This document shows positions 9,721-59,286 of a stretch of 64,000 bases of DNA, one piece after another. Both the position numbers and the translations under genes were made by a program. Every line of letters begins with the position of its first letter. Positions within the stretch are counted from its first letter, which is position 1. Source of the stretch: Anaerolineales bacterium (lineage in GTDB: Bacteria > Chloroflexota > Anaerolineae > Aggregatilineales > UBA2796); contig JABTTZ010000001.1 in assembly GCA_015075625.1 (NCBI GenBank), forward strand, positions 1,674,001-1,738,000. The letters run 5' to 3'. The notes under the pieces are model-generated. The model saw only the letters and a program-made list of their open reading frames with translations, searched no databases and was not told the origin of the DNA.

Positions 9721-9762
9721 GGTGCGGCAGATGCAAGCGGGCGCACGCCTCCCCCCCTCCCA

Positions 9763-30456: not shown

Positions 30457-30485
30457 TTGACACATAAGAACTTATGTGCTAAACT
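30457..30485 (+). promoter_or_regulatory. Promoter with palindromic operator for virion cluster A
   Basis: TTGACA (30457-30462), a 17-nt spacer and TAAACT (30480-30485) form a strong sigma70-type promoter. The spacer is a perfect inverted repeat, CACATAAG-AA-CTTATGTG (30461-30478), placed where a repressor would block polymerase. Nearly the same 29 bases stand in the other orientation at 58822-58850 before virion cluster B. Confidence 0.85.
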
Positions 30486-30546
30486 GCCTTTCATGCGATT
30501 GAGAGGGTGCTTGTGGTGTGCGACCCAACCCTCAGCCGGGAAATGA

Positions 30547-30586
30547 CGCGCCCGGTACGGATTCAGGAGAGTCCGTGCCGGGTGCG
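30547..30586 (+). promoter_or_regulatory. Strong RNA hairpin in the capsid leader
   Basis: A 15-bp stem (30547-30561 with 30572-30586, two G-U pairs) with the loop TTCAGGAGAG lies between the promoter and the capsid gene. It is followed by TTTGTG, a poor U-run, so it could be an attenuator, a processing site or an RNA-binding element. A counterpart with a full T6 run lies at 58696-58749. Confidence 0.6.
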
Positions 30587-30651
30587 TTTGTGATTCTCAG
30601 CCGTGATTCAATGCCCGCTGGTCTTGATCAGGTGACATGGAGAGCGAACGA

Positions 30652-31509
30652 ATGAGCGTTTATAACTTGATTCCCTCGGTGTGGACGGCGCGGCTGCTGG
30701 CAAACCTGCACACGGCGCACGTGTTTGGGCAGGCGGGTGTGGTGAACCGCGATTACGAAGGGGACATTCGGCAAAAGGGCGACAGTGTGCGCATCAACGC
30801 TATTGGGGCGATCACCATTGAGGATTACATCCGCGACGACCAGCTTGGCGAACCGGAAACACTGGAGGACGCGCAGACCGTTCTTGAAATTGACCAAGCG
30901 AAGTACTTCCACTTTCAGATTGACGACGTGGATCGCCTTCAGAGCAGCCCCGACGCCATGGACGAGGCGATGAAGGAAGCCGCCTATGCCCTTGCCGATA
31001 GCGCGGATCGTTACATTGCCGGACTCTACACGGATGCGGCGGAGGGGAACACGATTGGCAGCACAACGACCCCCAAAACGGATTTGGGGACGGCAGGACG
31101 CGCCTATGAATACCTTGTTGATCTCGATACGATGCTGACCGAGGCAAACGTCCCCCGCCCCGGACGGTGGGTGGTTGTCCCCCCCTGGTATTACGCCCTG
31201 CTGCGTAAAGACGAACGGTTCATCCGTTCGGGGACGGCGCTTGGCGATCAGGCGCTGCGCAATGGGCAGATCGGGATGGCGGCGGGGCTTTCGGTGATGG
31301 AATCGAACAACGCCCCGAATCCGGCTGGCTCGGTCTACAAGATCATCGCCGGCTATGGCGGGGCGATCACCTTTGCCGAACAGATCGTCCAGTTTGAGGC
31401 ATACCGCCCGGAAAAACGCTTTGCCGACGCGGTGAAAGGGCTGCACCTGTATGGGGCAAAGCTCGTCCGCCCGATGGGGATCGCCGTCCTCTCCGCACAG
31501 CGGGCGTAG
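30652..31509 (+). CDS. Phage-type major capsid protein (P22/HK97-fold coat)
   Basis: 285 residues from the ATG at 30652 (GGAG 9 bases upstream; an ATG at 30637 is less likely). The pattern VYNLIPSVWTARLLANLHTA, VNRDYEGDIRQKGDSVRINA, ITIEDYIRDDQLG, LEIDQAKYFHFQIDDVDRLQ and the helix DEAMKEAAYALADSADRYIA matches P22-coat-like capsid proteins of tailed phages. The end (FEAYRPEKRFADAVKGLHLY and KLVRPMGIAVL) also fits. It would build the icosahedral shell. Its own promoter lies at 30457. No terminase or protease gene is nearby, and the portal and scaffold-like genes are 26 kb away at 56.4-58.1 kb. Confidence 0.87.
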   Translation: MSVYNLIPSVWTARLLANLHTAHVFGQAGVVNRDYEGDIRQKGDSVRINAIGAITIEDYIRDDQLGEPETLEDAQTVLEIDQAKYFHFQIDDVDRLQSSPDAMDEAMKEAAYALADSADRYIAGLYTDAAEGNTIGSTTTPKTDLGTAGRAYEYLVDLDTMLTEANVPRPGRWVVVPPWYYALLRKDERFIRSGTALGDQALRNGQIGMAAGLSVMESNNAPNPAGSVYKIIAGYGGAITFAEQIVQFEAYRPEKRFADAVKGLHLYGAKLVRPMGIAVLSAQRA

Positions 31510-31526
31510 GGCGGTGAAAGGCGGGC

Positions 31527-31705
31527 GGACGCCTCAGAGGGCGTCCCTACAGGGGCGGGGCAACCAAACTATAGCGCGGGGTTAAACCACCCGCGCTAGG
31601 ACTAACCACCCCTGCGGGGCTTGACCCCGAATCCGCGATGTAATTTGCCTTCAAGCCCCAACGGGGCGGTTAATTTCAGCCCGCTGCTTTAGCGGCGGGC
31701 GGACG
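31527..31705. repeat. REP unit (D, A, B, core, B', C)
   Basis: D hairpin at 31527, module A (GCGCGGGGTTAAACCACCCG) at 31573, B, the core CCGAATCCGCGATGTAATTT, B' and C. The CGAATCCGCGATGTA core is shared by the REP units in virion cluster A. Confidence 0.85.
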
Positions 31706-31786
31706 CCGACGGGCGTGAGCGGGCGACCACGCGGGGTCGCCCCCCATAGAGTTTTTCAACCAACTGACCGAAAGGATAACCAACCA

Positions 31787-32152
31787 ATGGCACGCGATAC
31801 GCTCCCGATCACCGATCTTGCCGTGAACGCGCTGACCGCACCGGAAACGCCGCTGGCGATCTCGCCAACAGATGGGGCGACGCTCCCCGCCGGTGGCGAT
31901 ACGGGGCGGATCGCCGTCCAGATCACAAACAGCGCCGAGGCAGCCTACACGGTGACCGTTGCGGCGGGGGTGAACCCGCCCGCCTTCCGCGCCCCAATGG
32001 GCGATCTCGCCATGGAAATCCCCGCCGGAGCAACGCGCTACCTCGTCATTGAGTCAGCGCGATTTGCCCAAGCGAACGGGGCGATCTGGCTGGATTTTGA
32101 AAGCGGGATGACGGGGACGGCGCTCGCTTTGCGGCTGCCGCGTGGGGTGTGA
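31787..32152 (+). CDS. Small virion-associated beta protein (decoration-like)
   Basis: 121 residues from the ATG at 31787, with AAAGGA about 10 bases upstream. The sequence alternates short beta strands (DTGRIAVQITNSAEAAYTVT, AGATRYLVIESARFAQ) and has no catalytic motif, no signal peptide and no Cys. Its place after the capsid gene and its Ig-like strand pattern suggest a capsid decoration or head protein; this is inference. Its stop codon is two bases from the next ATG, so the two genes are translationally coupled. Confidence 0.6.
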   Translation: MARDTLPITDLAVNALTAPETPLAISPTDGATLPAGGDTGRIAVQITNSAEAAYTVTVAAGVNPPAFRAPMGDLAMEIPAGATRYLVIESARFAQANGAIWLDFESGMTGTALALRLPRGV

Positions 32153-32154
32153 CC

Positions 32155-32847
32155 ATGCGCCGGACGATCACGACAATCCTCTTACAGCGTACCGCCGCCG
32201 ATGATGCTGGCGCCTTCGCCACACTGCTCCGCTCGCTGCGTTTCACCCTGACGCGGGACGACTGCGAGGCGCTCATCTTGTTGAACGGAGTCGATGGCGC
32301 ATCGCCCGATCTGCCGGGGTCCGTTCGCTGGCTTCGTTGGCAAACGCCCCGCCCCGCCGCCGAGGGGTGGGCGGCGCTGGCACTGGCGGCACGCGGGCGG
32401 CGTCTCGCTCTAATCGCCCCCGATGGGCAGATTCGGGATTCGGCGTGGCTGGATGCGCTGAGTGCTGCGCTGCGGGGGGATGGCGTTGGGCTGGCGGCGG
32501 CGGCGGGGGGGTGGCTTGCCCTCACCGCTGAGCGTGAGGGCTGTCTGATCCCCGCCAAAGGGGGGGCGGGGATGGATGTTCCCCTTGGGGGGGCAATCCT
32601 CGGACGGCGGGAGGTGATCCGTGCGGCGCTGGAGGCGGCGGCAGAAGAAAACGACCCCCACCCGATCATCGGGATCGCGCTGCGGGCGCGGGCGGCAGGC
32701 TATGGGGCGGTGGTGGGGAAGAACGCCGAAGCTCTTGTCTGTGGGGGGTGGTGGGGGGCGGCTGACCTTCGCGCCCCGCCCGATTTTGCGCGGCGCTGGC
32801 GCGGGCGCGGGCTAATTCAGGCAGAGCAAGGCGGGCGCATTCCGTAG
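32155..32847 (+). CDS. GT-A-fold glycosyltransferase-like protein
   Basis: 230 residues. The N-terminal half reads like a family 2 glycosyltransferase: beta strand EALILLNGVDGASPDLP, then AARGRRLALIAPDGQIRDSA and WLDALSAALRGDGVGLAAAA, where the usual DxD lies in a (V/F)xDDD segment but is APDG here. A second nucleotide-sugar-type segment is GGAILGRREVIRAALEAAAE. The DxD motif is not intact, so activity is uncertain. It overlaps the translation unit of the small protein upstream (ATG 2 bases after its TGA). It could modify virion or surface glycans. GC content and Gly/Ala richness are extreme. Confidence 0.5.
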   Translation: MRRTITTILLQRTAADDAGAFATLLRSLRFTLTRDDCEALILLNGVDGASPDLPGSVRWLRWQTPRPAAEGWAALALAARGRRLALIAPDGQIRDSAWLDALSAALRGDGVGLAAAAGGWLALTAEREGCLIPAKGGAGMDVPLGGAILGRREVIRAALEAAAEENDPHPIIGIALRARAAGYGAVVGKNAEALVCGGWWGAADLRAPPDFARRWRGRGLIQAEQGGRIP

Positions 32848-32854
32848 GGACGCC

Positions 32855-33125
32855 CGCCGCTAAAGCAGCGGGCTGAGATTGACCGCCCCGTTGGGGCTTG
32901 AAGGCAACCTACATCGCGGATTCGGGATTAAGCCCCGCAGGGGTGGTTAACCCTAGCGCGGGTGTTTTAACCCCGCGCTATTTCGTGCCTTTGCGCCCGC
33001 CGTTAAAGCAGCGGGCTGAGATTGACCGCCCCGTTGGGGCTTGAAGGCAAAGTACATCACGGATTCGGGGTCAAGCCCCGCAGGGGTGGTTAGCCCTAGC
33101 GCGGGCGGTTTAACCCCGCGCCACG
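32855..33125. repeat. Two consecutive REP units
   Basis: Two full C-B-core-B'-A composites stand head to tail (32855-32980 and 32995-33122). Their cores (CTACATCGCGGATTCGGG and GTACATCACGGATTCGGG) differ at a few positions and belong to the virion-cluster-A subfamily. Confidence 0.88.
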
Positions 33126-33200
33126 CAACCCCATCCCCGATTTTTTTGCCTCTTCGCGGTACAATGTCACCTTCCAACAAAAACCCTATTGGAACACTGC

Positions 33201-33923
33201 ATGTCCACTCTGAAAACCCTTCTTCCCGCGCCGCTGCGCCGCCGTTTGGGAGCGTTCCGCAAAGGCTTAGAGGTCGCCCGCTTCCGGTGGGAGACGCGCC
33301 ACCTTGATGCCTTCCTCCGTGATGTGCGCGGCGTGATTCATGTCGGGGCGCACACTGGCGAGGAGGCTGACCTCTACGCCGCACGCGGGTTGGATGTGAT
33401 CTGGCTTGAGCCGATCCCCGCTGTCTTTGCCCAATTGGAAAAAAACATTGCGCCGTTCCCTCGCCAGCGGGCGATCCGCGCCCTCATCAGCAGCGCCGAC
33501 GACCAGCCAATCACCTTTCATGTTGCCGATAATGCGGGGAGCTCGTCCTCCCTGTTCGAGTTCGCCCGTCACACCGAACTGTATGGCGAGGTCGCTATGG
33601 GGCAGACGCTCACCCTTCAGACGGTGACGCTCTCCACGCTGGCGCAGCGCGAACAGATCGACCTCAGCAAGTACGACGCGCTGGTCATGGACACACAGGC
33701 ATCCGAACTGCTCGTTTTGCAAGGGGCAGCGCCTATCTTGGATGGCTTTCGCTACATCAAAACGGAGGCAGCCGATTTTGAACTTTACAAGGGCGGCTGC
33801 CAATTGAAAGATATTGAGGCATTCCTCTCGCCACGTGGCTATAGGGAAATCGCCCGCTACCTGTACATCGAAAAGGCGGACGTCGGGCATTGCTACGATG
33901 TCGTCTACCGGCGCGGTACGTAG
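33201..33923 (+). CDS. FkbM-family methyltransferase
   Basis: 240 residues from the ATG at 33201. The SAM-binding block is VIHVGAHTGEEADLYAARGL, followed by VIWLEPIPAVFAQLEKNI, the conserved SSSLFEFARH segment and DTQASELLVLQGA (the FkbM D-x-x-G/S-x-E-x-x-V-L-x-G motif). FkbM enzymes O-methylate sugars or natural products, and often sit in surface-glycan clusters. Here the gene lies among virion genes next to a glycosyltransferase-like gene, which suggests glycan modification of a particle or the cell surface. It has REP units on both sides and its own promoter is not clear. Confidence 0.88.
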   Translation: MSTLKTLLPAPLRRRLGAFRKGLEVARFRWETRHLDAFLRDVRGVIHVGAHTGEEADLYAARGLDVIWLEPIPAVFAQLEKNIAPFPRQRAIRALISSADDQPITFHVADNAGSSSSLFEFARHTELYGEVAMGQTLTLQTVTLSTLAQREQIDLSKYDALVMDTQASELLVLQGAAPILDGFRYIKTEAADFELYKGGCQLKDIEAFLSPRGYREIARYLYIEKADVGHCYDVVYRRGT

Positions 33924-33927
33924 GGAC

Positions 33928-34060
33928 GCCCGCCGCTAAAGCAGCGGGCTGAGATTGACCGCCCCGTTGGGGCTTGAAGGCAAACTACATCCCGTATTCG
34001 GGTTCAAGCCCCGCAGGGGTGGTTAACCCTAGCGCCGCACGCGCTCACGGTTGCGCCCGC
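33928..34060. repeat. REP unit (C, B, core, B', partial A)
   Basis: C and B are followed by a core with CTACATCCCGTATTCGGG and B'; module A is cut short after AGCGC at about 34032. Confidence 0.8.
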
Positions 34061-34100
34061 CGCCCAACCTCACCCCACGTCGGGGCGACCACGCGCCCTC

Positions 34101-34526
34101 TCATTCCCACGTCTCGCTGATCCATTCCCCCACCCGAACAAAGACGATCTCAAAGACCGCCGCCGCGCCTTGATTCAGCCGTTCGCTGAAGGTCTGCACA
34201 ACGGCGGGAAAGCCCCGTTTGGGCATCCCCGGCGCAGCGCCGCCGCGCCCGTAGATGAGGACGCCCCGCGTCCCCTCGGCAAGCGCCCCCTCAAGGGATT
34301 CCTCCGCGTGCAGGACAATCCGCGCTGCGCCGCCCGCCGCCCCCAGCAGGACATCACGGTAGGGGGCGTTGTGGGGAGTCCCATCGGGGAGATCGGCGTT
34401 TCGTTCGATGCGAAACTCTAGGTAATGGGGGTGGAGCGCGTGTGATTCGTCCGCCACCTCCCAAAAAATGACGAGTTGAGCAAGGGCGGCGCGGCGCAGC
34501 TCCAAAAATGCCGAGGAGGGGTACAT
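34101..34526 (-). CDS. Small virion-type protein (tail terminator/completion-like position)
   Basis: 141 residues, no Cys, no signal peptide. It starts MYPSSAFLELRRAALAQLVI and holds GVLIYGRGGA and an aromatic end FEIVFVRVGEWISETWE. No family can be named from sequence alone. It lies 14 bases after the connector-like gene and probably shares its transcript; in tailed phages this place is normally taken by head-completion or tail-terminator proteins, and the size fits. That role is inferred from order only. Confidence 0.5.
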   Translation of the reverse strand: MYPSSAFLELRRAALAQLVIFWEVADESHALHPHYLEFRIERNADLPDGTPHNAPYRDVLLGAAGGAARIVLHAEESLEGALAEGTRGVLIYGRGGAAPGMPKRGFPAVVQTFSERLNQGAAAVFEIVFVRVGEWISETWE

Positions 34527-34540
34527 CGATCCACCTTTCT

Positions 34541-35086
34541 CTAGACGAATCTTCCGACGACGATCCCCGCCAAGCGTTCATGATGATCGACCATCCGTAA
34601 ACAGTGGGCGTGTTCTTGCGCCGCCCGCACCCCGCGCCCTTCTGCCTCCCAATCAAGTTTGGCAGCAGCAAGGGCGGCTTTCTGCGCCCAAACCGCCGCC
34701 GCCGCCCGATGGAGGTTGTAGACTCGGCAGTCAAGGACGTACCGCGCCCCGCCCGTCTCACTGAGGAAGGTGATCCGCCGTGCGGCATAATTCACCGCGT
34801 AGAGCGCCGGATTGACCACCGCCCCCCGCCGATCCCGCACAGCAAAGCCGGAATCCGTCCCCGCTTCCTCTAGCGGGTCGCTCAGCGGGATGCGGTATAC
34901 CGTCACCGGTGGGGGCGTCACGGCGATCAGTCCCAGGCGGCTATGAACCGTCGCCATCCGATCCAGTTCGGCTTGAAGTTGGTCGTCCGTCCAATAGGGG
35001 ACGCCCGCCAGAGTGACATCCGTCGGCGTCGTGTTCGTCAGCAGCCGCAGTTGGGCGATCACCGTCGCCATCCCAGATCGGGGCAT
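34541..35086 (-). CDS. Phage head-tail connector-like protein
   Basis: 181 residues from the ATG at 35086, which has AAAGGA about 8 bases upstream; longer reading of the frame runs into a REP unit. The start MATVIAQLRLLTNTTPTDVT and YWTDDQLQAELDRMATVHSR match the N-terminal helix pair of gp6-type head-tail connector proteins (a short DNA-adaptor family). A beta middle (VYRIPLSDPLEEAGTDSGFA) and a helical end (LHRAAAAVWAQKAALAAAKL) follow. It would join the portal to the tail. Next gene in the transcript is the small protein at 34101-34526. Confidence 0.65.
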   Translation of the reverse strand: MPRSGMATVIAQLRLLTNTTPTDVTLAGVPYWTDDQLQAELDRMATVHSRLGLIAVTPPPVTVYRIPLSDPLEEAGTDSGFAVRDRRGAVVNPALYAVNYAARRITFLSETGGARYVLDCRVYNLHRAAAAVWAQKAALAAAKLDWEAEGRGVRAAQEHAHCLRMVDHHERLAGIVVGRFV

Positions 35087-35124
35087 CTTGTGTATCCTTT
35101 CTTGTTTCTCGTCGTGTGGCTGCC

Positions 35125-35268
35125 CGCGTTTGCGCCCGCCGCTAAAGCAGCGGGCTGAGATTGACCGCCCCGTTGGGGCTTGAAGGCAAATCATGTCACG
35201 GATTCGGGTTCAAACCTCGCAGAGGTGGTTAACCCTAGCGCGGATGGTTTAACCCCGCGCCCTCATGA
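35125..35268. repeat. REP unit (C, B, core, B', A)
   Basis: Full composite with the core CATGTCACGGATTCGGG; B' is mutated (CCTCGCAGAGG) and module A has GATG in its loop. Confidence 0.85.
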
Positions 35269-35275
35269 GGACGCG

Positions 35276-35959
35276 CTACAGGGCATCCGCCGCCAGCGCT
35301 GCGATCTGCGCCGCCGTCAGCGCCGCCCCCCACAAGCCAACACGGGCGAGCGACCCGCGCATATCCGCCGCGCCCGGTGTCCGCCCAAAGGTCAGCGGTA
35401 CGGCGGCGGGCGTGATCGGCGTGCTGTATGCCCGCACCGCAGCCAACACCCCGCCGCGATACAGCCGCACGAACTCGCCATCGTAGCTCAGCGCCCAGTG
35501 TTGCCAGCGGTTCAGGGCGGGGTCAAGGCGGCTAACCCCGCTTTCGGTGTAACTGTTCAGCCAACCGAGGTAGCCACCGGCAAAGGCAAAGGCATAGCCC
35601 GCCTCTGACCACGACGCCTCATTTTTCCCGATGATTCCCCCATATGGCGCGTGGGCGGCAAGGCGCAGCCAAAACGCCAGTGTGAATGCCGCCGGGGTCA
35701 GCGCCGCATCGTCGGGGACGATCACCGCCCCCTCGCCCCCAAAACGCGGGGCGGGGCGTCCATCAGGGGCGCGGTCTGCCCCCGCCGCCACGCCCGTATA
35801 CGTCCCGTTGTAGCCGTTCCCAGAGGCATCCACCGCCACCGCCGCCCCCGCCCCTTCGTCCAGCACCCATGCGCCGATCAGGGCGGCGGGGTAGGCGTTC
35901 AGCAGGCGGCGGGTGAAGTTCGGCGCGGCGGGTTGAAGGCTGAGCAAGCGGTGTGCCAT
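35276..35959 (-). CDS. LamG/concanavalin A-like domain protein of the virion cluster
   Basis: 227 residues. After a 25-residue lead (FTRRLLNAYPAALIGAW) the rest is one LamG-type beta-sandwich: VDASGNGYNGTYTGV, FTLAFWLRLAAHAPYGGIIG, RWQHWALSYDGEFVRLYRGG and RVGLWGAALTAAQIAALAAD. LamG domains bind sugars and are common on phage tail fibres and baseplates. There is no signal peptide, which fits a virion protein more than a secreted host lectin. It is 18 bases downstream of the 120-residue gene at 35978 and probably shares its transcript. A second LamG domain lies inside the protein at 36923-39466. Confidence 0.75.
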   Translation of the reverse strand: MAHRLLSLQPAAPNFTRRLLNAYPAALIGAWVLDEGAGAAVAVDASGNGYNGTYTGVAAGADRAPDGRPAPRFGGEGAVIVPDDAALTPAAFTLAFWLRLAAHAPYGGIIGKNEASWSEAGYAFAFAGGYLGWLNSYTESGVSRLDPALNRWQHWALSYDGEFVRLYRGGVLAAVRAYSTPITPAAVPLTFGRTPGAADMRGSLARVGLWGAALTAAQIAALAADAL

Positions 35960-35977
35960 GATTCGGACTCCTCTCGG

Positions 35978-36340
35978 CTAGACAGGGCGCACGACGATCT
36001 GAAAGACTCGATCCGCCGCCTCCGCCTCCGCCGTTTCAATTTTTAGGTAGCGCCAGCCGAGAAAATCACGGGGGTTCAAGGGGTATGCCCGCGCCGCAGC
36101 GGTGCTGACCGCCAGGCTGAGCGGGACGTTTCCCCCATCGCACAGGGGGTAGAACGTCTCGCCATCGGCGCTGACCTGAAAGGTGATCGCCGCGTTCGTC
36201 AGGGCGGCGGGCGTGATCAGCCCAACGGGGGTATAGCCGCCCAGATCAAGCGCTGTGCTGAGCGATTCTTCCTCGGCAAGGGTGAGCGCCGCTGTCGCCC
36301 GCGTGTAGGCGGATTGGGCGCTGAAGGGTGGGAGAGTCAT
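35978..36340 (-). CDS. Small virion-cluster protein
   Basis: 120 residues from the ATG at 36340, with AAAGGA 8 bases upstream; the frame is open to 36403 but without a ribosome site. The composition is beta-rich (AITFQVSADGETFYPLCDGG, FLGWRYLKIETAEAEAADRV). The pattern of a short beta-sandwich with 'QVSADGETFYPL' is seen in small phage tail proteins, but I cannot assign a family. First gene of the leftward group 36340-34101. No virion-type promoter (as at 30457) was found upstream; a REP array starts there. Confidence 0.55.
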   Translation of the reverse strand: MTLPPFSAQSAYTRATAALTLAEEESLSTALDLGGYTPVGLITPAALTNAAITFQVSADGETFYPLCDGGNVPLSLAVSTAAARAYPLNPRDFLGWRYLKIETAEAEAADRVFQIVVRPV

Positions 36341-36419
36341 GGGGCAATCCTTTCTAAGGTAGACGACGATGCGCATGAACCATTCGCCGTAATCGATTTT
36401 CAACGACGTTACGGGGGCG

Positions 36420-36912
36420 CGTGTGGCGCGGGGTTAAAACACCCGCGCTAGAAATAGCCACCCCTACGGGGCTTAATCCCGAATCCGCGATGTAGGTTGC
36501 CTTCAAGCCCCAGCGGGGCGGTCAATCTCAGCCCGCTGCTTTAGCGGCGGGCGCAAAGGCACGAAATGGCGCAGGGTTAAAACATCCGCGCTAGGGTTAA
36601 CCACCCCTGCGGGGCTTAATCCCGAATCTGCGATGACGGCGCGGGGTTAAAACACCCGCGCTAGAAATAGCCACCCCTACGGGGCTTAATCCCGAATCCG
36701 CGATGTAGGTTGCCTTCAAGCCCCAACGGGGCGGTCAATCTCAGCCCGCTGCTTTAGCGGCGGGCGGAAAGACACGAAATAGCGCGGGGTTAAACCGCCC
36801 GCGCTAGGGCTAACCACCCCTGCGGGGCTTGACCCCGAATCCGTGATGTAGTTTGCCTTCAAGCCCCAACGGGGCGGTCAATCTCAGCCCGCTGCTTTAG
36901 CGGCGGGCGGAA
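36420..36912. repeat. REP array between divergent virion genes (about 490 bp)
   Basis: Three A-B-core-B'-C composites, one of them partly deleted near 36635, all with cores of the CGAATCCGCGATGTAG type. The last C module ends 11 bases before the next start codon and directly abuts its ribosome site. Confidence 0.9.
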
Positions 36913-36922
36913 AGGAGAATGC

Positions 36923-39466
36923 ATGACAACCTTGATCCTGATCATTCAGTTTGACTCCGACGACGATCCTACCGATCTTTCTGCCGAGGTGATCAGCGCC
37001 GAGATTGAGGCGGGGCTGTGCGCCGACGATTCCCCGATGGGCGGCGGGCGGGCGCGAATTGTCTTGGGCAATGCCGATGGGCGTTTTTCGCCAGAGAATC
37101 TGAGCAGCCCCTTTTACGGGCGGCTCAATCCGAACCGCCCCATCGCATTAAGCGCCCGCGTGGGGACAACCACTTACCCCCTATTCACGGGCGTCACTGA
37201 GCGCTGGCTGCCCGAATCGGGCGGCTATGGGCGGCGCACCTGCACGCTGATCGCGGGCGATTTGATGGGGACGCTGGATCGCGCCGGAGTCAGCCTCCCG
37301 CTGCGGCGGGACGAGGCGGGCGGGGCGCTTATCCGGCACATTCTGAACCTTGCCCTTGATGCCCCCGCCGCGATAGGGACGGTCAGCTTCAGCGCCGCCC
37401 CCACCGATGGCGATACGATCACGGTGAATGGGGTGACCTATACCTTCCGAACGGCGCTCACGCCGAGTACCCCCGCCGAACTTCTGATCGGGGCAGACGC
37501 CGAGGACAGCGCCGATGCCCTTGCCGATGCGATCAACGGGGCGGAGGGAGTCGGGACGCGCTATACCGCTGGCACGCCCCGCCCAGAGATCGTCACGGCG
37601 GCGGCGCGGGGGACGTACTTCCGCCGCCTGCGGGAGAGCGGCGCGATCCGCTATTATCGCTTGGGGGTGTTCCCCGCTGGCGCTGCGCTGGATTCCGGCG
37701 TGAACGGGCGCGATGGGCTGGTGACGGGCGGGGCGCTGACGGTGATCAGCGGGGCGTTGGGCGGCGACCCCGACGGGGCGGGGTATTTCGATGGCTCTGG
37801 CGAACACATCGCCATTCCGACGCTCGATCTCGCCCATCGTTCGTTCACGATCAGCGCATGGCTCAAGCCCGACGCCGCGCCGCCCGCCGCGCAAGATTGG
37901 TTCAGCGCCGTCAGCGCGGGGGCGTTCCGTCAGGCGCTCTCCCTGCGCCTGTATGACGATGGGGCGCTCGGCGTCCTCTATTGGGATGACGATGCCTTCA
38001 GCGCGGCGGGCGTCCTCCCCTTTGGGGTGTGGAGTCACCTCGCCTGTGTCTATGACCACAGCGCCGGACAGACGCGCCTCTACCGGAACGGGGAGATCGT
38101 CTACGCGGGGACGGTGGGCGGCTTTGAGGGGGCGAATGCGGCGCTGCGGATTGGGTCGGGGGCGGGCGGAAACGGCTGGCAGGGCGGGATTGACGAGGTG
38201 GCGATCCACCTTCGCCCCCTCAGCGGCGAGGAAATCAGTGATCTGGTGGGGGCGGCGGGCGAGGGGCGCGGGGTGACCCTGCGGGCGGCGCTCCCCGGCG
38301 CGGTGGGCAATGCCATTCCGCTGGGCAAGAGCGGGACGGCGATCAGCCTTTCGGGAGCAACGCTGGCGGGCGGGGAAGACCGCCCAGCCGACGCCCAGAT
38401 CGACGCCGGACGGTGGGCGTTCGATGTGGCGGGCGATGGCTGGACGCGAGAAGCGACTTCGGCGCGGGCGGCGCTGCGGGCGGTGACGGAATCGGCGCAG
38501 GGGTTGGCGTGGGTAGGGCGCGAAGGGATGTTCGTCTGGCGCGATGGGGAGTTTCTGTTGCGGGCAGCGGCGGCTACGCCCACCCTGACCATCGGCGGCG
38601 AACTGACTCTGCGCGGAGAGCGCGGGGCGGTGGTGAACGCTGTGCGGGTGACGACGACTCCCCGCGCCACGCAAGGGACGGGCGTCGTTGCCCGCGCCGA
38701 CTCGGTGATCGCGGTGCCGGGTGGGAGCGGCTACCGGCGCTATGACCCTAACGATCCGCTCATTGTGAATCCGGGTGGGGCGGCGCGGACGGTGATCCTC
38801 CCCTTCCGCGACCCGCTGACGGGCGAGACAGCCGGCGCTGAGGGCGTCATTTTGCCGCTGGAGGCGGGGATCGATTGGACGGCGAATGATCGCCCCGATG
38901 GGAGCGGGATCGATTACACCTATTTCGAGGCGCTCACCTTCAGCGTGGCGCTGACGGCGGGCGAGGCGGCGGTGACGATTCGGAACACGGCGTTGGGCGT
39001 CCTCTATGTGACCTTCTTGCAACTACGGGGGAGGCTGATCACGCGCTATGCCCCGCTGACCTTCGCCGCCGATGATCCGGCGAGTGCGGCTGCCTACGGG
39101 CTGCACGCCGAGCGGCTCTTTCTGCCGCTGCCGGCGCCGCCCGCCTTCGCCGCGTCGTTGGCGGAATACCGCTTGGCGCGGGGGGCGCTGCCACACTACC
39201 GCGTGACGACACTCAGCGGGAATGTCGAGTCCGTTGGCGGGGTCAGCCTCTACGCGCCGGAGATCGGGGAGGTGATCGCCGTCAGCGAGCCGCATACGGG
39301 CGTGAGTGGGGCAAAATACCTCTTGGCGGGGGTGGTCTACCGTTTCGGGCTGCGCGATGCGCCGCGAATCACCTACCATGTGCGGCGCTTGGACGACCAA
39401 ACCTACGGGGTGTTCGATGACGCGCTCTATGGACGGTTTGATGAGACGCTGCGGGCGGCGGTGTGA
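36923..39466 (+). CDS. Large phage tail/baseplate-like protein with an inserted LamG domain
   Basis: 847 residues with AAAGGAG just before the ATG at 36923. Residues about 1-125 (TDLSAEVISAEIEAGLCADD, GNADGRFSPENLSSP) look like the first domain of phage tail or baseplate hub proteins. Residues about 150-230 hold a region with DGDTITVNGVTYTF seen in phage tail-associated proteins. Residues about 240-445 form a LamG sandwich (FDGSGEHIAIPTLDLAHRSF, WSHLACVYDHSAGQTRLYRN). The last 400 residues return to a tail-type pattern and end in VYRFGLRDAPRITYHVRRLD. It has no signal peptide or Cys pair. The LamG insertion, matching the separate LamG gene at 35276, suggests a host-binding structure. Confidence 0.65.
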   Translation: MTTLILIIQFDSDDDPTDLSAEVISAEIEAGLCADDSPMGGGRARIVLGNADGRFSPENLSSPFYGRLNPNRPIALSARVGTTTYPLFTGVTERWLPESGGYGRRTCTLIAGDLMGTLDRAGVSLPLRRDEAGGALIRHILNLALDAPAAIGTVSFSAAPTDGDTITVNGVTYTFRTALTPSTPAELLIGADAEDSADALADAINGAEGVGTRYTAGTPRPEIVTAAARGTYFRRLRESGAIRYYRLGVFPAGAALDSGVNGRDGLVTGGALTVISGALGGDPDGAGYFDGSGEHIAIPTLDLAHRSFTISAWLKPDAAPPAAQDWFSAVSAGAFRQALSLRLYDDGALGVLYWDDDAFSAAGVLPFGVWSHLACVYDHSAGQTRLYRNGEIVYAGTVGGFEGANAALRIGSGAGGNGWQGGIDEVAIHLRPLSGEEISDLVGAAGEGRGVTLRAALPGAVGNAIPLGKSGTAISLSGATLAGGEDRPADAQIDAGRWAFDVAGDGWTREATSARAALRAVTESAQGLAWVGREGMFVWRDGEFLLRAAAATPTLTIGGELTLRGERGAVVNAVRVTTTPRATQGTGVVARADSVIAVPGGSGYRRYDPNDPLIVNPGGAARTVILPFRDPLTGETAGAEGVILPLEAGIDWTANDRPDGSGIDYTYFEALTFSVALTAGEAAVTIRNTALGVLYVTFLQLRGRLITRYAPLTFAADDPASAAAYGLHAERLFLPLPAPPAFAASLAEYRLARGALPHYRVTTLSGNVESVGGVSLYAPEIGEVIAVSEPHTGVSGAKYLLAGVVYRFGLRDAPRITYHVRRLDDQTYGVFDDALYGRFDETLRAAV

Positions 39467-39469
39467 AGG

Positions 39470-39690
39470 GTCGCCCGCCGCTAAAGCAGCGGGCTGAAAT
39501 TGACCGCCCCGTTGGGGCTTGAAGAGTCCCTCACCCCCTGCCCCCCCTCCCACAAGGGGGAGAGGGGGAAATCAATCCCCATATTTCGTAGGGACGCCCC
39601 AGGGGGCGTCCGTCCTATCAGGCATTGGGGTTTCAAGCCCCGCAGGGGTGGTTACTCATAGCGCGGGCGTTTTAACCCCACGCCATTTCC
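39470..39690. repeat. REP unit broken by an F hairpin and a D module
   Basis: Modules C and B are separated from B' and A by a C-rich hairpin (about 39535-39570) and a D hairpin (39592-39612). So F and D sit in the place of a normal core. Confidence 0.8.
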
Positions 39691-39785
39691 CGCCTTTGCG
39701 CCGCACGCGGTCATGGCTGCCACTCGCCGTGTGTTCGCGCCGCGACTCGGCATCTTCTACGTTGTATCAGAAAGGACACCCCCTC

Positions 39786-40280
39786 ATGGCATGGACACCC
39801 CCCGACACGCGCACCGCTGGTGATGTATTCAGCGCTGCCGCCTACAACACCTACCTACGCGATAACCTCACCTACCTTCACGCTGGAAAGCCCCTCGCGG
39901 CGCTGGCACGGGCGAACGGGTCGGTGTACACCGTCAGCGCCTCGGCGTGGGCGGCGGTGGATGCGACGCACCTTGCCCCCACCCTGACCCTTTCCACCGG
40001 GCGCGTCCTGATCGCCTGTGTGGGCAGTTTTTATGCTGATGCCGCCTCGCGCCTTCTCTCGCTGGATGTCGCCATTGACGGAACGCGCATCGGTGGCACG
40101 GATGGGCTGCTCAAGACAACACTGGACACGAACGCTCAGAGCATCGCCTTCACCATCCTGCACGCGGGGCTAAGCGCCGGATCGCACAGTTTTACGCTGA
40201 TGTGGCGGGTGGGGTCGGGGATTGCCTCCCTGTTCAGCGGGACGGATGTCGCCGTCCATTTCACAGTGGCGGAGTGGTAG
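39786..40280 (+). CDS. Small tail-fibre-like protein
   Basis: 164 residues from the ATG at 39786 (AAAGGA about 10 bases upstream). The start TPPDTRTAGDVFSAAAYNTY followed by RDNLTYLHAGK is typical of short phage tail or fibre proteins and of cyanophage-type structural proteins ('W-x-P-G-D-x-L-T-A-A-x-x-N'). The rest is a beta-sandwich (VLIACVGSFYADAASRLLSL, LDVAIDGTRIGGTDGL). It closes virion cluster A. No lysis genes follow; a REP array and CRISPR array 2 come next. Confidence 0.6.
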   Translation: MAWTPPDTRTAGDVFSAAAYNTYLRDNLTYLHAGKPLAALARANGSVYTVSASAWAAVDATHLAPTLTLSTGRVLIACVGSFYADAASRLLSLDVAIDGTRIGGTDGLLKTTLDTNAQSIAFTILHAGLSAGSHSFTLMWRVGSGIASLFSGTDVAVHFTVAEW

Positions 40281-40770: not shown

Positions 40771-40792
40771 GGTTGCAGATCGAGATCAAGGG

Positions 40793-41276
40793 GTTTCAGT
40801 ACCCTCAACGGGCTGGACGTGGTTGCAACTGGGCGATAGCGATGCTATTGAAATCTACCGCCTGCTGGGTTTCAGTACCCTCAACGGGCTGGACGTGGTT
40901 GCAACAGTATGGGCAGGTGGTTGGGCTGCCTGAGAGAGAAGAGGTTTCAGTACCCTCAACGGGCTGGACGTGGTTGCAACGTGGCAGCAATTGCGTTTCC
41001 AGCCCTTAATTTTAGTTTCAGTACCCTCAACGGGCTGGACGTGGTTGCAACTCTATCGCCGTCAAGTCCTCCCCCCCATTGTGAGAAATGTTTCAGTACC
41101 CTCAACGGGCTGGACGTGGTTGCAACAATGCATTCATTCTTTCCAGTGATGATCTGACCGCCGGTTTTCAGTACCCTCAACGGGCTGGACGTGGTTGCAA
41201 CCTGAGCGATATACACTTGACTACTGCATTAAAACCTCAGTTTCAGTACCCTCAACGGGCTGGACGTGGTTGCAAC
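40793..41276 (-). CRISPR. CRISPR array 2: seven 37-nt repeats, six spacers
   Basis: Repeats start at 40793, 40869, 40944, 41015, 41090, 41165 and 41240. They differ from array 1 by one base (GGACG for GGATG); the repeat at 41165 has T as first base. Spacers are 34-39 nt, a little longer than in array 1. The leader is on the right, so transcription is leftward. No spacer was seen to match the window by eye. Confidence 0.97.
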
Positions 41277-43956: not shown

Positions 43957-46491
43957 TTACGCCTCGTCGTAGGCGTCCCCAACGGCGATCTCTAGCGGCA
44001 TGATCTGACGCGCCTCCTCAAGATCAAAGGGATTCAGGTCGCTTGGCTCATACTGCCCTAAGCGCTCGTACAACCCCTGCACCGCCGTCAGGGTGGGTGT
44101 GTAGGCATAGGGTTCGCCATCGCACCAGGCAAGGTAATAGGCGGCTTGCGCCGTCTTGATCGCCGCCTCGGGTTGCCCGGCGTCAATCTCCATCTCGGTG
44201 AGCAAGGTGTAGGCGTCGGCGTGATGAAGGCGATAGGGTCCGCGTTCGGCGCTCTCCCACACATCGTTCAGCAGCGTCCGCGCCGCTTTTGTATCGCCCA
44301 TCGTTCGCCGCAGCGCCGCCAGACTGATCAAGGCGGGGAGTTCGGCATCGGGCATGTTCCCCGCCCGCGCCCGTGTCAGGGCGTGGTTCAGCCGCTCATC
44401 GGCACGTTCGTGATCGCCCGCCGCCAACGCCGCCCGCCCTTGCGCCAACGCCGCCCGGACGTAATCCCCTTCAAACTTGGCGTGGTCGGCAAGCTGCCAA
44501 GCCCGCTCGGCAAAATCGGCGGCGGCTTCACGCTCGCCCGTCGCCAAGAGAACACCAGAGAGCAGCCCACAGCAGACGCCTTCCAACTGAATGTGCTTTT
44601 GCGCCCGAAGGATGTTCAGCGCCCGCCGGAGCGCCTGCCCCGCCTCGTCGTGGTTGCCCACCGCCGCCCGCACCAAGCCGACGAAGTGCAGCCCGAACGC
44701 CTCGCCCGGGGCATCGCCAATCGTGCGGCTGATCAGCACAGCGCGGTTTGCTGCCGCTGTCGCCCCGCCAAGCGCCCCCATCTGGCGGAGGACATCGGAG
44801 AGGTTGTTCAAACCAATCGTCACATTTTTCAGGTTGTTCTCGGTTTCCGCCATGCGCACCGCTCGTAGGTACAGCCCCGCCGCTGCGCCCGGCACACCGC
44901 CGGCGTGGTAGGCAAGGGCAAGGGCGTTGATCGCCCGCGCTTGTGCCGCCTCGCGCCGGATTGCTGGCGGCTTATCGATACCCTCGATGAACAGTCCTTC
45001 GAGCAGTTCGGCGCGTTCGCGGTGGGCGCTCAGACGGCGCAGCATGGGAATGTTCAGGCGTTCGGTAAAGAGGGCAAAGGCTTCCTCGTACTCGTGCAAG
45101 CCGATGTACGTGTTATAGAGTTCGATCATGCCGGTGAGGTCGTCAAGGCTTTTGACATCTTCCAAGCTGACCGCCGGAAGCGCCCCAAAATGGGCATTCA
45201 GGCGTGTGTAGAGCGTCTTTTGCGTCCCCTTGTCCAGCGAATTCCACGCCACGCCGCGCACAATGGGATGTAGATCGCAGCGGTTGGCGGGACGATCCCA
45301 GCCCATCAGCCCGCGTGATTCTAACGCGGTGAGCGCGGCGGTTAACCCCTCCTCAGAATCGAAGCGGGCAAACTTTTGGCTCTCTTTGGGCGCGTCGGGG
45401 CGCTTGATCAGCAGATCGCCAAGCGCCTCCACCGTTGCCGGCATCCGAAAGGAGGCGATCAGATCGAGAGTCCGCCGTTGGGCGTCCTCCAAGCCGGCGA
45501 GGGCGAAGGTCATCACATGGGACTTTACTTGATCGGCGGGCTGTTTCAGCGGGTTAAAGCCCCGGTTTTTCTTCCGCCACGCGGCAAAGTCGCCCGGCGC
45601 ATCGGGAAAATGGGAGACCGCCCCCGCCAGCGCCCGAATCAGGAGCGGGTAGTTGGCAAAGGTTTTGAAGATTGCCAAAAGCTCGCCATCGTCGCCGCTG
45701 CACCCGAAGGAACGCCACAGCGAGAGGGCGTCGGGATCGTCCAAGCCCATGAGGAACATGGCATGGCTGCCCGGCGTGGGGTAGCCCGTGTTCGTTTGGA
45801 GATCGGCGGGGTAGAGGCGCGTGCTGACGAGGATGCGCGAGGCGTTGACCGCCGCCAGCTTGCGTAGGAATGCGCCAGCGCGGGGATCGGCGGTTTTGCG
45901 CAGGCGGTTGGCGCTGAACATCGTGGGGGCGGCATCGGCGGGCAAGCCGATTGCTCCGGCGACGACGTTTGCCGTCTCTGCGTCAAGGGCATCGTCGTCC
46001 ATGCGGGCGGCGTCCAAACGGGCATAGGCAATCATCATCCGCTCAATGCCGTCAAGGACGATGAGGTATGGCTCTTTGTCCAGGATGCGGAGCAGTTCGC
46101 GCTCGCGTTCGGGGGCGGTAATTTCGCGCACCTCACCAAGCGGGGCTTGGGTTACATAGGCAAGGGCGCGGATGATGAAATTTTCAAAGTGGGCGTCGCT
46201 CTCGTAAAAGCTCCACCACATGCGCCCGGCGCGGTTGGGGAGGGCGCTAGGGGCAATCTCGGTGAACCATTTCCAGGTCATGGCGCTTTTGCCCATGCCG
46301 CCAATGGCGACGACGTTCAAAATGCGGACGTTATGATCGGTTGCCGTCGCCCATTCGGTCAGCAGGTCAAGCTGTTTGGCGCGTCCCGCCACCTTTCCCG
46401 AAGGAATCAGCGTGTAAGGGTGGGCAATATAATCTTCCGGTGGTTTCGGGATCGTCCCCACATGATGAAACTTCGGGGTGAGATCGGTCAT
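43957..46491 (-). CDS. STAND NTPase with C-terminal TPRs
   Basis: 844 residues. The NTPase has a P-loop AIGGMGKSA (62-70), the segment MWWSFYESDAHFENFIIRAL and Walker B YLIVLDGIER (142-151), then a helical arm with SRILVSTRLYPADLQ (sensor 1 type). A winged-helix-like part follows (about 380-440) and about 400 residues of TPR-type helical repeats (AINALALAYHAGGVPGAAAG, ALAQGRAALAAGDHERADER). STAND proteins act as switches in signalling, transcription or anti-phage defence (Avs type). There is no N-terminal effector domain here, so it may be a regulator or adaptor. Its gene is alone, divergent from the glucosidase gene. Confidence 0.85.
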   Translation of the reverse strand: MTDLTPKFHHVGTIPKPPEDYIAHPYTLIPSGKVAGRAKQLDLLTEWATATDHNVRILNVVAIGGMGKSAMTWKWFTEIAPSALPNRAGRMWWSFYESDAHFENFIIRALAYVTQAPLGEVREITAPERERELLRILDKEPYLIVLDGIERMMIAYARLDAARMDDDALDAETANVVAGAIGLPADAAPTMFSANRLRKTADPRAGAFLRKLAAVNASRILVSTRLYPADLQTNTGYPTPGSHAMFLMGLDDPDALSLWRSFGCSGDDGELLAIFKTFANYPLLIRALAGAVSHFPDAPGDFAAWRKKNRGFNPLKQPADQVKSHVMTFALAGLEDAQRRTLDLIASFRMPATVEALGDLLIKRPDAPKESQKFARFDSEEGLTAALTALESRGLMGWDRPANRCDLHPIVRGVAWNSLDKGTQKTLYTRLNAHFGALPAVSLEDVKSLDDLTGMIELYNTYIGLHEYEEAFALFTERLNIPMLRRLSAHRERAELLEGLFIEGIDKPPAIRREAAQARAINALALAYHAGGVPGAAAGLYLRAVRMAETENNLKNVTIGLNNLSDVLRQMGALGGATAAANRAVLISRTIGDAPGEAFGLHFVGLVRAAVGNHDEAGQALRRALNILRAQKHIQLEGVCCGLLSGVLLATGEREAAADFAERAWQLADHAKFEGDYVRAALAQGRAALAAGDHERADERLNHALTRARAGNMPDAELPALISLAALRRTMGDTKAARTLLNDVWESAERGPYRLHHADAYTLLTEMEIDAGQPEAAIKTAQAAYYLAWCDGEPYAYTPTLTAVQGLYERLGQYEPSDLNPFDLEEARQIMPLEIAVGDAYDEA

Positions 46492-56391: not shown

Positions 56392-56745
56392 CTAACCACC
56401 GCGCAGCAGACGCCGCACATCTGCCCACCGCGCATTGATCGCCTCTGGCGAGAGCGCCCGCAGATCGTCGGCGCTCAGCGGCGTTTCGCTTGCCGGATGC
56501 GTCGGAGAGGGCGCGGACGGACGTTTCGCCCCGCTTGCCCCGCCGCTCTGGGTGATCTCGCTGATCGCCTTGCGCAAGCGCTGCGCGTCCGCTGTCAATT
56601 CCGCCTCGGTTGCCCCTTGCAGACGGTCTGCCAGTGTCTCGCTCAGGTGGTGGCGAAGCGCCACCCGCAGCCGCAGCGCGTCAAGGATGGCGCTGCTGTC
56701 CTCCTTTGGCTCATCGTTCAAAACTGGACTGGAGTCCTCTGGCAT
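56392..56745 (-). CDS. Small scaffold-like protein downstream of the portal gene
   Basis: 117 residues from the ATG at 56745, which has a perfect AGGAGG 6 bases upstream; longer reading only shadows the portal gene. The protein is charged and helical (RLRVALRHHLSETLADRLQG, TEAELTADAQRLRKAISEIT) with a disordered Pro/Ser/Ala stretch (about 68-90) and a basic C-terminus (RWADVRRLLRGG). Size, composition and position directly after the portal are as in phage scaffolding proteins, whose C-terminal basic helix contacts the capsid. No family is certain. Confidence 0.6.
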   Translation of the reverse strand: MPEDSSPVLNDEPKEDSSAILDALRLRVALRHHLSETLADRLQGATEAELTADAQRLRKAISEITQSGGASGAKRPSAPSPTHPASETPLSADDLRALSPEAINARWADVRRLLRGG

Positions 56746-56747
56746 GG

Positions 56748-58100
56748 TCAGCCTCCTACGTCTCTGCTCATCGTTTCCATCGTGCCGAACTGCCCCACAG
56801 GGACGCCGCTTTCCCCGCTCATGCGGGTGGTTTCCATGCGCCAATCGCGCCCGCGTTCTCGTGCCGCCGTCTCGCGGCTGATGATGCCCATCGCCCGTTC
56901 GCGTTCCAGCGCCTCCAGCATCTCCAAGTCGCCCACCGGAAGCGGATCGCGCCAGTGGAGGATCACATCGAGCGGCGTCCGCCCGTCGTAGCGCCCGGAC
57001 AGCATGAGCATCGTCCGGCTGAGCGCGGCGATGCCGGGTTCGTAGTTACGGCGCAGTTCCTCCGCCCGCGCAAGCTGATCGAGGTAGAGCGCCCGAATGC
57101 CGAGGTTGGTCACGTAACGCATCTCGGAAAGCGACCCCTCGTGTTGGATCACGCGGCGCTCTGCCATGAACGAGCGCGTGCAGAAGTTCAGAAAGTTCAT
57201 GCTGCTGGCGAGGTCGGTTTTCATCTCAAGGTTAAATACCTGCGCATCCCGCGCCGGAATCGTCCAGAAGTGATCGATACCCGTCCCCGTCACCTCCCCC
57301 GCCGTGAAACCGATGCCAATCGTGCGCGGGGCGGCGTGAAAGCGCAGAATCCGGCTGATGTCGCTGGCGACGCTGTTCACCCGTTCGTTCAGCGCCAAAT
57401 TGCCCGCCTCGCCCACGCCATAGTAGCGATCCGGGTAGGGATCGTGCGCCCAATCGACTAGGGGCGGCAGCGGGTATGCCCACGCCGTCTCGTTCGCCAA
57501 AGTCCACGCGCCTGGGGTGAGCGCCGGAATCCGCGCCGCCTCGCGCCGAAAATCACGGATCAGCCAGCGCCCCGCCTCGCCCTGCCGGACGACATCCTGA
57601 CGGTAATCGACGCCGCCCGCGCTGTAGTTGATCTCGTACCACAGGACATGCTCGGCGTCGTCCGCCCGCCAATAGGTCGTCACCAACGAGGGATTCAGGG
57701 CGATCAGGCGCGGGAAGGGGCTGCCCATCGCTGGTGGAATCACACGGGCGACAATATGCCCATCAAGCGCCCCGAAGCGGGCGAATTTTGTCATGAGCCG
57801 CGCCCCGCCCGCCGCCTTCCACGCCCGCCGCAGCCAGAGTTCATCGGCGCTCTCTCGCAGGGGGTCAAGGTCAAGGGCAGGAAAATCGGGGGCGACAAAG
57901 GCGCAGAGCCGATCTACCGCCTGTTTCAAGAGGTTGATCGCCGTGTTATCGTCCGCCTCGCCCGGACGGGGCGGGAACGAGCGCCGAAAACGCCCCTCAT
58001 AAGCAGCCCAGGCAGCGGCGTGCGCATGGCGACGGGCGCTCCGCTCTGCCTCGCCCGCCTCGCGGTAGCGCTCCGGCGCGTACTCAGTTGCCGCTGGCAT
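56748..58100 (-). CDS. Phage portal protein (SPP1 gp6-like)
   Basis: 450 residues from the ATG at 58100. The sequence fits portal proteins: NTAINLLKQAVDRLCAFVAP near the N-terminus, the stem/wing segment VLWYEINYSAGGVDYRQDVV, an insertion with PLPPLVDWAHDPYPDRYYGV, the long helix NLALNERVNSVASDISRILR and a C-terminal helical region (LDVILHWRDPLPVGDLEMLE) ending in a mixed tail. Portals form the ring through which DNA enters the capsid. It overlaps the upstream TM/coiled-coil gene by 17 bases and lies 2 bases before the scaffold-like gene. No terminase gene is present on either side, which is unusual, as terminase is normally the neighbour. Confidence 0.85.
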   Translation of the reverse strand: MPAATEYAPERYREAGEAERSARRHAHAAAWAAYEGRFRRSFPPRPGEADDNTAINLLKQAVDRLCAFVAPDFPALDLDPLRESADELWLRRAWKAAGGARLMTKFARFGALDGHIVARVIPPAMGSPFPRLIALNPSLVTTYWRADDAEHVLWYEINYSAGGVDYRQDVVRQGEAGRWLIRDFRREAARIPALTPGAWTLANETAWAYPLPPLVDWAHDPYPDRYYGVGEAGNLALNERVNSVASDISRILRFHAAPRTIGIGFTAGEVTGTGIDHFWTIPARDAQVFNLEMKTDLASSMNFLNFCTRSFMAERRVIQHEGSLSEMRYVTNLGIRALYLDQLARAEELRRNYEPGIAALSRTMLMLSGRYDGRTPLDVILHWRDPLPVGDLEMLEALERERAMGIISRETAARERGRDWRMETTRMSGESGVPVGQFGTMETMSRDVGG

Positions 58101-58440
58101 GGTTGAGCGCCTCTCGGGTCTCGCGTTCCTCACGGCGCAGCGTTTCAAGGATCACGCGCTGCCCTTCTAAGAGGGCGGCGGCGTGCTGAAGCATCGTCCG
58201 CTGTTCGTGAAGAAGCGCCACCTGCTGCCCGGCAATCGCTTTCAACTCAATGAGCGTATCGCGCATCACGGCGAAAATCTCCGTCCGTTCCGCCTCCAGC
58301 CGCGCCCGCTGCGGGATGTAGTATTCGGCAAACCAGGGCCACAGCTTGCGCCAGGCGAACACGCCAACGCCCAAGACAAGGATCACGCCAACGCTCAATT
58401 GGGCGGGGTCAAGCCGCGCCAGCCACGCATCAAAGGACAT
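58084..58440 (-). CDS. Small membrane/coiled-coil protein of virion cluster B
   Basis: 118 residues with one membrane helix (about 15-35, SVGVILVLGVGVFAW) followed by a long amphipathic coiled coil (about 45-115, RLEAERTEIFAVMRDTLIEL, HEQRTMLQHAAALLEGQRVI). One-span proteins of this size beside phage structural genes can be holins, spanins or assembly anchors, but no motif decides. It is the first gene after the promoter at 58822-58850 and overlaps the portal gene by 17 bases. Confidence 0.55.
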   Translation of the reverse strand: MSFDAWLARLDPAQLSVGVILVLGVGVFAWRKLWPWFAEYYIPQRARLEAERTEIFAVMRDTLIELKAIAGQQVALLHEQRTMLQHAAALLEGQRVILETLRREERETREALNHASGN

Positions 58441-58695: not shown

Positions 58696-58749
58696 AAAAA
58701 AGCGCCCGACACAACCACCGCCCCGTTCAGGGATGGTCATGCCGAGCGC
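58696..58749 (-). terminator. Attenuator-like terminator between the cluster B promoter and its first gene
   Basis: On the minus strand GCGCTCGGCATGACC (58749-58735) pairs over 15 positions, with several G-U pairs, to GGTTGTGTCGGGCGC (58716-58702), followed by T6 (58701-58696). As it lies downstream of the promoter at 58822-58850 and upstream of the genes, transcription may stop here unless prevented; or it ends a small RNA of about 120 bases. Confidence 0.65.
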
Positions 58750-58821
58750 CTCAGACCCGGCGCGGGGGTGGGTGGGTGCAGGGAGGCAGCACGCCACATC
58801 AACCCCTCAAGCGCACGAGTT

Positions 58822-58850
58822 AGTTTAGCACAAAAGTTCGGTTGTGTCAA
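58822..58850 (-). promoter_or_regulatory. Promoter of virion cluster B, twin of the capsid promoter
   Basis: On the minus strand TTGACA (58850-58845), 17-nt spacer, TAAACT (58827-58822). Compared with 30457-30485 it keeps TTGACACA, GAACTT and TGTGCTAAACT; the inverted repeat is less perfect (CACAACCG-AA-CTTTTGTG). The unusual identity of the spacer as well as the boxes implies a shared regulator. Confidence 0.82.
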
Positions 58851-59055: not shown

Positions 59056-59096
59056 CATCCAAAGGTGGTATGGTATGCCCTACGTGCCGATCTTGT

Positions 59097-59133
59097 GTTT
59101 CAGTACCCTCAACGGGCTGGATGTGGTTGCAAC
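59097..59133 (-). CRISPR. Solitary CRISPR repeat with leader
   Basis: One 37-nt repeat identical to the array 1 consensus, followed on the right by a leader copy (59134-59286) but with no second repeat on the left. Either the array has been lost, or this is a site where spacers could be added. A single repeat is not proof of an active locus. Confidence 0.8.
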
Positions 59134-59286
59134 CGCCCCTCATTCAAACGCCTCACGGGGTGCAAAATGACCTTTGGGATCATTTTCGTTCAAATTTGGG
59201 CGTTCCTCGATAGCGATCATCATACACCCTATTCCAAAAATGTTAAGCAATTTGTCCCGATTTTCGAAAGTCGATCCCTGTCAAAA
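59134..59286 (-). promoter_or_regulatory. Leader of the solitary CRISPR repeat, truncated by repeat P
   Basis: It matches the array 1 leader from the repeat outward for about 150 bases, including the hairpin (59164-59186), then stops where repeat P begins. The -35 box is TTAACA in place of TTGACA, with the 16-nt spacer and TATGAT kept. Confidence 0.78.

Follow-up and report, generated by a model that had tools for sequence, protein, structure and literature searches.

A dispersed and probably gene-transfer-agent-like system of phage-derived genes in Anaerolineae

The window, a 64,000-nucleotide stretch of chromosome from an Anaerolineales bacterium, contains two of at least three chromosomal loci which probably constitute a host-owned, phage-derived, dispersed, vertically inherited and co-regulated gene-transfer-agent-like system of Anaerolineae, with packaging and transfer of DNA as its presumed activities. 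The third known locus encodes a terminase and is located about 140 kb upstream of the capsid gene on the same contig. A preliminary description of the window had envisaged either a broken-up locus or a domesticated particle. This view is partly supported overall: both parts hold, the gene set being rearranged and at the same time conserved, co-regulated and co-diversifying with its host.

Virion genes of the window and the distant terminase

Family matches and homologues confirm the capsid-, portal-, scaffold-, connector-, tail- and fibre-like genes proposed in the preliminary description, and their reading frames are indeed intact; the genes run in two directions, not in three as counted there. 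The capsid block on the forward strand comprises the major capsid protein (30637–31509; phrog_267, E 1e-73; Pfam Phage_capsid_4), a small protein 3′ of it (31715–32152, likely start 31787; phrog_24894) that is kept at the same position in the sister genome of the genus (G001) and in viral contigs, a protein without family match (32149–32847), whose homologue in G003 of the same family sits between capsid and adaptor, and an FkbM-type methyltransferase between repeat units (33189–33923, likely start 33201). In viral contigs and G002 (L086, L145, L202), glycosyltransferase-like genes lie between capsid and adaptor or before the adaptor and occupy the place of the 32149 gene and the methyltransferase of the window; all of these possibly serve particle decoration. 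The portal block on the reverse strand starts with p118, a membrane plus coiled-coil protein (58084–58440) which is also found in the G004 cluster of the order type described below and might serve lysis, followed by the portal protein (56748–58148, likely start 58100; weak match to phrog_533, E 0.028) and the scaffold protein (56392–56844; phrog_233, E 1e-7). Portal homologues in the family are 49–62% identical, and that of G005 matches PF05133 (SPP1 portal) with E 2e-9. The window portal also shares 42% identity with that of viral contig L084, in which the genes follow the order terminase, portal, scaffold-like gene, capsid, p145 and adaptor.

Four further genes of this region are located on the reverse strand. 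The tail-tube-like protein (34101–34526) is assigned by phage homologues, which match major tail protein families (E 4e-7 and 1e-4), and by a predicted structure (mean pLDDT 60) that modestly matches the tail tubes of phages such as lambda, NF5 and 80alpha (Foldseek E about 0.002–0.02). It is accompanied by a head-tail adaptor-like protein (34541–35194, likely start 35071) kept in family genomes and viral contigs, a LamG-like protein (35276–35959; Laminin_G_3) and, upstream of the latter, a small protein without family (35978–36403). On the forward strand, a tail hub-like protein with a LamG insert (36923–39466), which finds matches in 43 of the 61 genomes of the order and whose structure model is unusable at a mean pLDDT of 29, precedes a fibre-like protein (39786–40280) that is paired with the hub in other families as well.

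The terminase missed in the preliminary description is indeed absent from the window, but not from the genome. A phrog_2 search of the own genome, with UvrB as the sole match, had first suggested its absence there too; this was overturned by a family-specific model built from two same-family terminases, which identified the gene at C1:1564263–1565684 (+) among host genes (E 4e-173). The encoded protein matches phrog_9 (E 2e-41), scores above the Pfam cut-off for TerL_nuclease, and its P-loop (CPKKSAKST), DE motif and three nuclease-domain Asp residues are invariant in the five members aligned. Terminases of this type also occur in G001, G003, G005, G007, G009 and G010, and thus in every same-family genome with a window-type portal (the own genome G000, G001, G003, G005, G007 and G010). 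They are present as one or two genes amid host genes; the small subunit may be encoded by a gene of about 190 residues that lies upstream in G005, G007, G009 and G010, and a small-subunit gene was not detected next to the own terminase. The phrog_2 search had turned up this different kind of terminase in the family members G005 and G009. Outside the family, the own type was found only as distant copies in family f8, where the terminase contigs of G017 and G042 also hold a tape measure, which identifies those copies as prophages. Neither the own terminase nor the hub has a match in 50,697 phage records.

A domesticated particle that has ceased to transfer genes, for instance a weapon built on a tail or capsid, or a storage shell, would fit the LamG and fibre proteins, the retention of hub and fibre in G002, where head genes were not detected, and the lack of a tape measure: as the preliminary description had it, no phrog_28-type match was obtained in the own genome, and the same model finds prophages in relatives. 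We nevertheless regard such a particle as unlikely, because a terminase with its catalytic residues accompanies the window-type portal in every genome and stands under the operator of the capsid (see below), a combination that makes sense mainly if DNA is packaged.

A common operator and leader hairpins

The capsid and portal operons start from promoters of identical layout, TTGACA-17-TAAACT, whose spacers contain a common operator, AGAACnnnnGTGCTA. For the capsid operon, the promoter TTGACA-CATAAGAACTTATGTGC-TAAACT spans 30457–30485 (+) with the operator AGAACTTATGTGCTA at 30467–30481 (+), and for the portal operon TTGACA-CAACCGAACTTTTGTGC-TAAACT spans 58822–58850 (−) with CGAACTTTTGTGCTA at 58826–58840. 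The earlier suggestion to seek a terminase behind the shared promoter motif proved fruitful, as a copy of the same operator (GCGAACGTCTGTGCTAGACT) ends 33 bp upstream of the start of the distant terminase. When one mismatch is allowed, AGAACN4GTGCTA occurs three times in the window, one site falling inside an unrelated gene, against 0.47 expected occurrences, and none of 100 shuffles reached three. In 1.404 Mb of own DNA, ten operator sites were counted (three exact, seven with one mismatch), three of which precede the capsid, the portal operon and the terminase.

An order-wide scan, allowing one mismatch to GAACN4GTGCTA within 1000 bp upstream, detected the operator at 20 of 25 order-type terminases and 17 of 26 protease-capsid genes, and at six of ten terminases and four of five portals of the window type. 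The corresponding counts for hub (0/24), fibre (0/18) and the control gene tsaD (0/37) were nil. Where the capsid lies behind the portal in one operon (G003, G005) the site is found at the portal only; where the two are apart (own genome, G001) it is found at both. The box resembles the GAAC-N4-GTTC SOS (LexA) boxes of Gram-positive bacteria. An SOS-like regulon is also hinted at by two further own sites, C1:709496 (L480) before a pair of helicase/nuclease-like genes and C1:1763260 (L171:5261) before a small SWIM-like gene; no LexA or RecA was recognised by sequence motif in 1.4 Mb (about 30%) of the own genome.

Both leaders of the window contain a terminator-like hairpin (30545–30587, + and 58702–58752, −), with similar hairpins in relatives. 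In family f1, a strong hairpin, similar at its foot (GCGCCCGG-like) and trailed by T residues, is present in five capsid or portal operon leaders and in the terminase leader of G004, and these elements could act as attenuators. Rfam gave no match in the window, apart from a chance miRNA match of the leader hairpin.

Between the two virion blocks lies a STAND-type AAA plus TPR protein (43957–46491), of which a 78% identical orthologue is located 9 kb from the portal in G001. It was considered as a regulator and is not put forward as such, because the gene in G005 is a different paralogue. The window also contains CRISPR-like arrays with a common repeat (among 9748–10443, 40778–41276 and 59082–59282), including a solitary repeat near the portal operon whose leader copy is almost identical.

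Head modules, inheritance and gene order across the order

In other families of the order, the head is of a related yet distinct type and is encoded by a terminase (phrog_2), a portal protein (PF04860) and a protease-capsid fusion of about 600 residues (PF04586 plus PF05065), together with a connector (phrog_442), a completion-like protein and homologues of the hub and fibre of the window. The capsid model of this order type detected its target in 29 of 29 genomes (12/12 in f2, 11/11 in f4, 5/5 in f5 and 1/1 in f6; in pieces in G029 and G055), nearly always accompanied by the order-type terminase; outside the order, 14 of about 270 class members gave weaker matches. The genes mostly lie within some 13 kb in f4, where several genomes have them next to a phosphoglucomutase-type gene. 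Terminase and capsid of f2 were mostly found on separate contigs, and the f5 terminase lies apart (examples are G014, G018, G047 and G060); in the one-contig genome G310 the capsid stands alone amid host genes. The f4 contigs L210, L211, L214 and L217 contain TIR-, HEAT-like and FHA-like genes among the portal, terminase and capsid genes. Within the family of the window, G004 has the order-type terminase, portal and protease-capsid on one contig with hub, fibre and p118, neither head type was detected in G002, G006 and G008, and the order-type terminase and protease-capsid models found no match in the own genome. Two IMG/VR contigs, L241 and L242, carry capsids 100% and 97% identical to that of the chromosomal G004 cluster and are host-owned genes filed as virus.

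This variation of the head module within the family, where the capsids of G005, G007 and G010 are only about 19% identical to that of the window, and the existence of free phages with capsids up to 57% identical would be expected from repeated independent acquisition of related phage modules. We consider this explanation very improbable. Pairwise distances of terminase, capsid and hub track those of the host gene tsaD, the single host marker of this comparison (Mantel r 0.85, 0.80 and 0.86; range 0.79–0.86; p 0.0001), for terminase and capsid also within f2 and f4; f2, f4 and f5 form single clades in the terminase and the capsid tree; and matches to terminase or hub were not detectable in any named phage. 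Between the own genome and G001, dS of terminase (1.68), portal (1.86), capsid (1.76) and hub (1.70) resembles that of tsaD (1.76), all values being near saturation, and dN/dS amounts to 0.17, 0.17, 0.14 and 0.33, respectively. Close pairs in other families yielded dN/dS of 0.06–0.26 at a dS like that of tsaD, so that the dN/dS comparison proposed earlier, with 0.06–0.33 across relatives, indicates purifying selection. The virion genes of the window are intact, vertically inherited and under purifying selection.

REP-like units lie between the virion genes and, in agreement with their earlier assignment to the host type, also in flanking host DNA. A segment at 33927–36909 is bracketed by inverted repeat units (33927–34035 and 36801–36909, 96% complementary), and flipping it would render the virion genes here collinear, as in G001 and G003; the mixed gene directions fit one inversion between repeat units. 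The proposed synteny comparison bears on this point. G003 has, on a 6.4 kb contig and in one direction, p118, portal, scaffold, capsid, the 32149 homologue, adaptor, tail tube and the start of the hub, and hub and fibre on a second contig. In G001, p118, portal and scaffold adjoin nuo genes on contig 44, capsid and p145 are on contig 234, and adaptor, tail tube, hub and fibre are collinear on contig 334. Separation of portal and capsid, which are 26 kb apart in the own genome, is accordingly common to the genus, and only the flip of adaptor and tail tube is specific to the window.

Mixed directions, repeat units between genes and the lack of a tape measure or integrase in the window could also indicate a decaying prophage, split by repeat-mediated rearrangement so recently that its genes are still intact. 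The preliminary description held that a complete prophage at this place in a close relative, or frameshifts in other strains, would speak against its reading: no complete prophage was seen at this place, and in one relative, G003, the portal gene (L166 4107–5420) is interrupted once by an in-frame TAG where Arg is otherwise conserved, as an assembly error or a real stop, which would suit decay. We judge a young decaying prophage to be quite unlikely, since the split already exists in G001, with capsid, portal, hub and terminase on four contigs, dS resembles that of a host gene at a dN/dS of 0.14–0.33 over a genus-level split, and the common operator is kept at all three units.

For the favoured gene-transfer-agent-like system we propose the following scenario. 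A regulator binding AGAACnnnnGTGCTA would control the capsid, portal-scaffold and terminase units, and a signal, perhaps DNA damage, would cause head, portal and terminase to be made together. For want of a phage genome, the terminase would then fill the heads with cell DNA, which a short tail bearing the hub, LamG and fibre proteins would deliver to kin cells; the genes might have been scattered by repeat-driven rearrangement. Hub and fibre without operator, own adaptor and tail-tube genes flipped away from the hub, no phrog_28 tape measure, no small-subunit gene next to the own terminase, the in-frame TAG of the G003 portal, the near-saturated dS and the family members in which neither head type was detected speak against this interpretation. 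Somewhat more tentatively, we lean towards the wider proposal that a gene transfer agent of independent origin belongs to the order. Its scattered terminase, portal, capsid and tail units would be reunited only by a shared SOS-like operator (in one family also by the leader hairpin), and its head module would have been swapped in the family of the window while hub and fibre were kept.

Comparison with known gene transfer agents and phages

Gene transfer agents (GTAs) have been established for only a small number of lineages. If true, the fixed, co-regulated set of Chloroflexota would bring in a further phylum and show to what extent a phage can be dismantled and still be retained, and the operator sequence would offer a means to find further dispersed systems. 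As a caution, calls of “incomplete prophage” and some IMG/VR contigs (L241, L242) can represent host-owned particle genes. A review notes that dispersed loci hide further GTAs (PMC11841831). In the literature searched, judged by titles and abstracts, no GTA of Chloroflexi or Anaerolineae was apparent.

GTAs are recognised as viriforms and include RcGTA and its relatives, BaGTA and the Brachyspira GTA (PMC9662315, PMC11841831). They are characterised by tailed-phage-derived proteins, a genome endogenised often over multiple loci and mostly vertical inheritance, and further by a genome too large for one particle, mostly random host DNA inside and delivery to other cells (PMC9662315). The Anaerolineae set shares tailed-phage ancestry (capsid, scaffold, portal, terminase and tail-tube-like proteins), endogenisation at several loci, with terminase and portal 140 and 26 kb from the capsid and dispersal in much of the order, and vertical inheritance according to the Mantel correlations with the one marker tsaD, the family clades and the tsaD-like dS. 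Its virion loci span about 168 kb of chromosome, a figure whose comparison with whole-genome packaging depends on head capacity. It does not form a compact prophage, the terminase being remote amid host genes and the split recurring in G001.

Free siphophages with phrog_267-type capsids, Aeribacillus phage AP45 and phage D6E, share a capsid 57% identical over 98% of its length and are, in contrast to the scattered genes of the window, complete phage genomes. In the Caulobacter GTA, control is exerted by activation and anti-termination (PMC11150451). Dedicated control of structural genes is a common feature, and the terminator-like leader hairpins of f1 would likewise need read-through; hairpins and operator are, unlike the Caulobacter control, described at the level of sequence. 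RcGTA, BaGTA and the Brachyspira GTA resemble the Anaerolineae system in their phage-derived head, portal, terminase and tail genes at multiple loci, some with one or two genes only, and in co-diversification with the host. They differ in that the Anaerolineae set belongs to another phylum and consists of other genes without a phrog_28 tape measure, in the separate loci of its head and packaging genes in f1, f2 and f5, and in the common operator that precedes its terminase, capsid and portal units.
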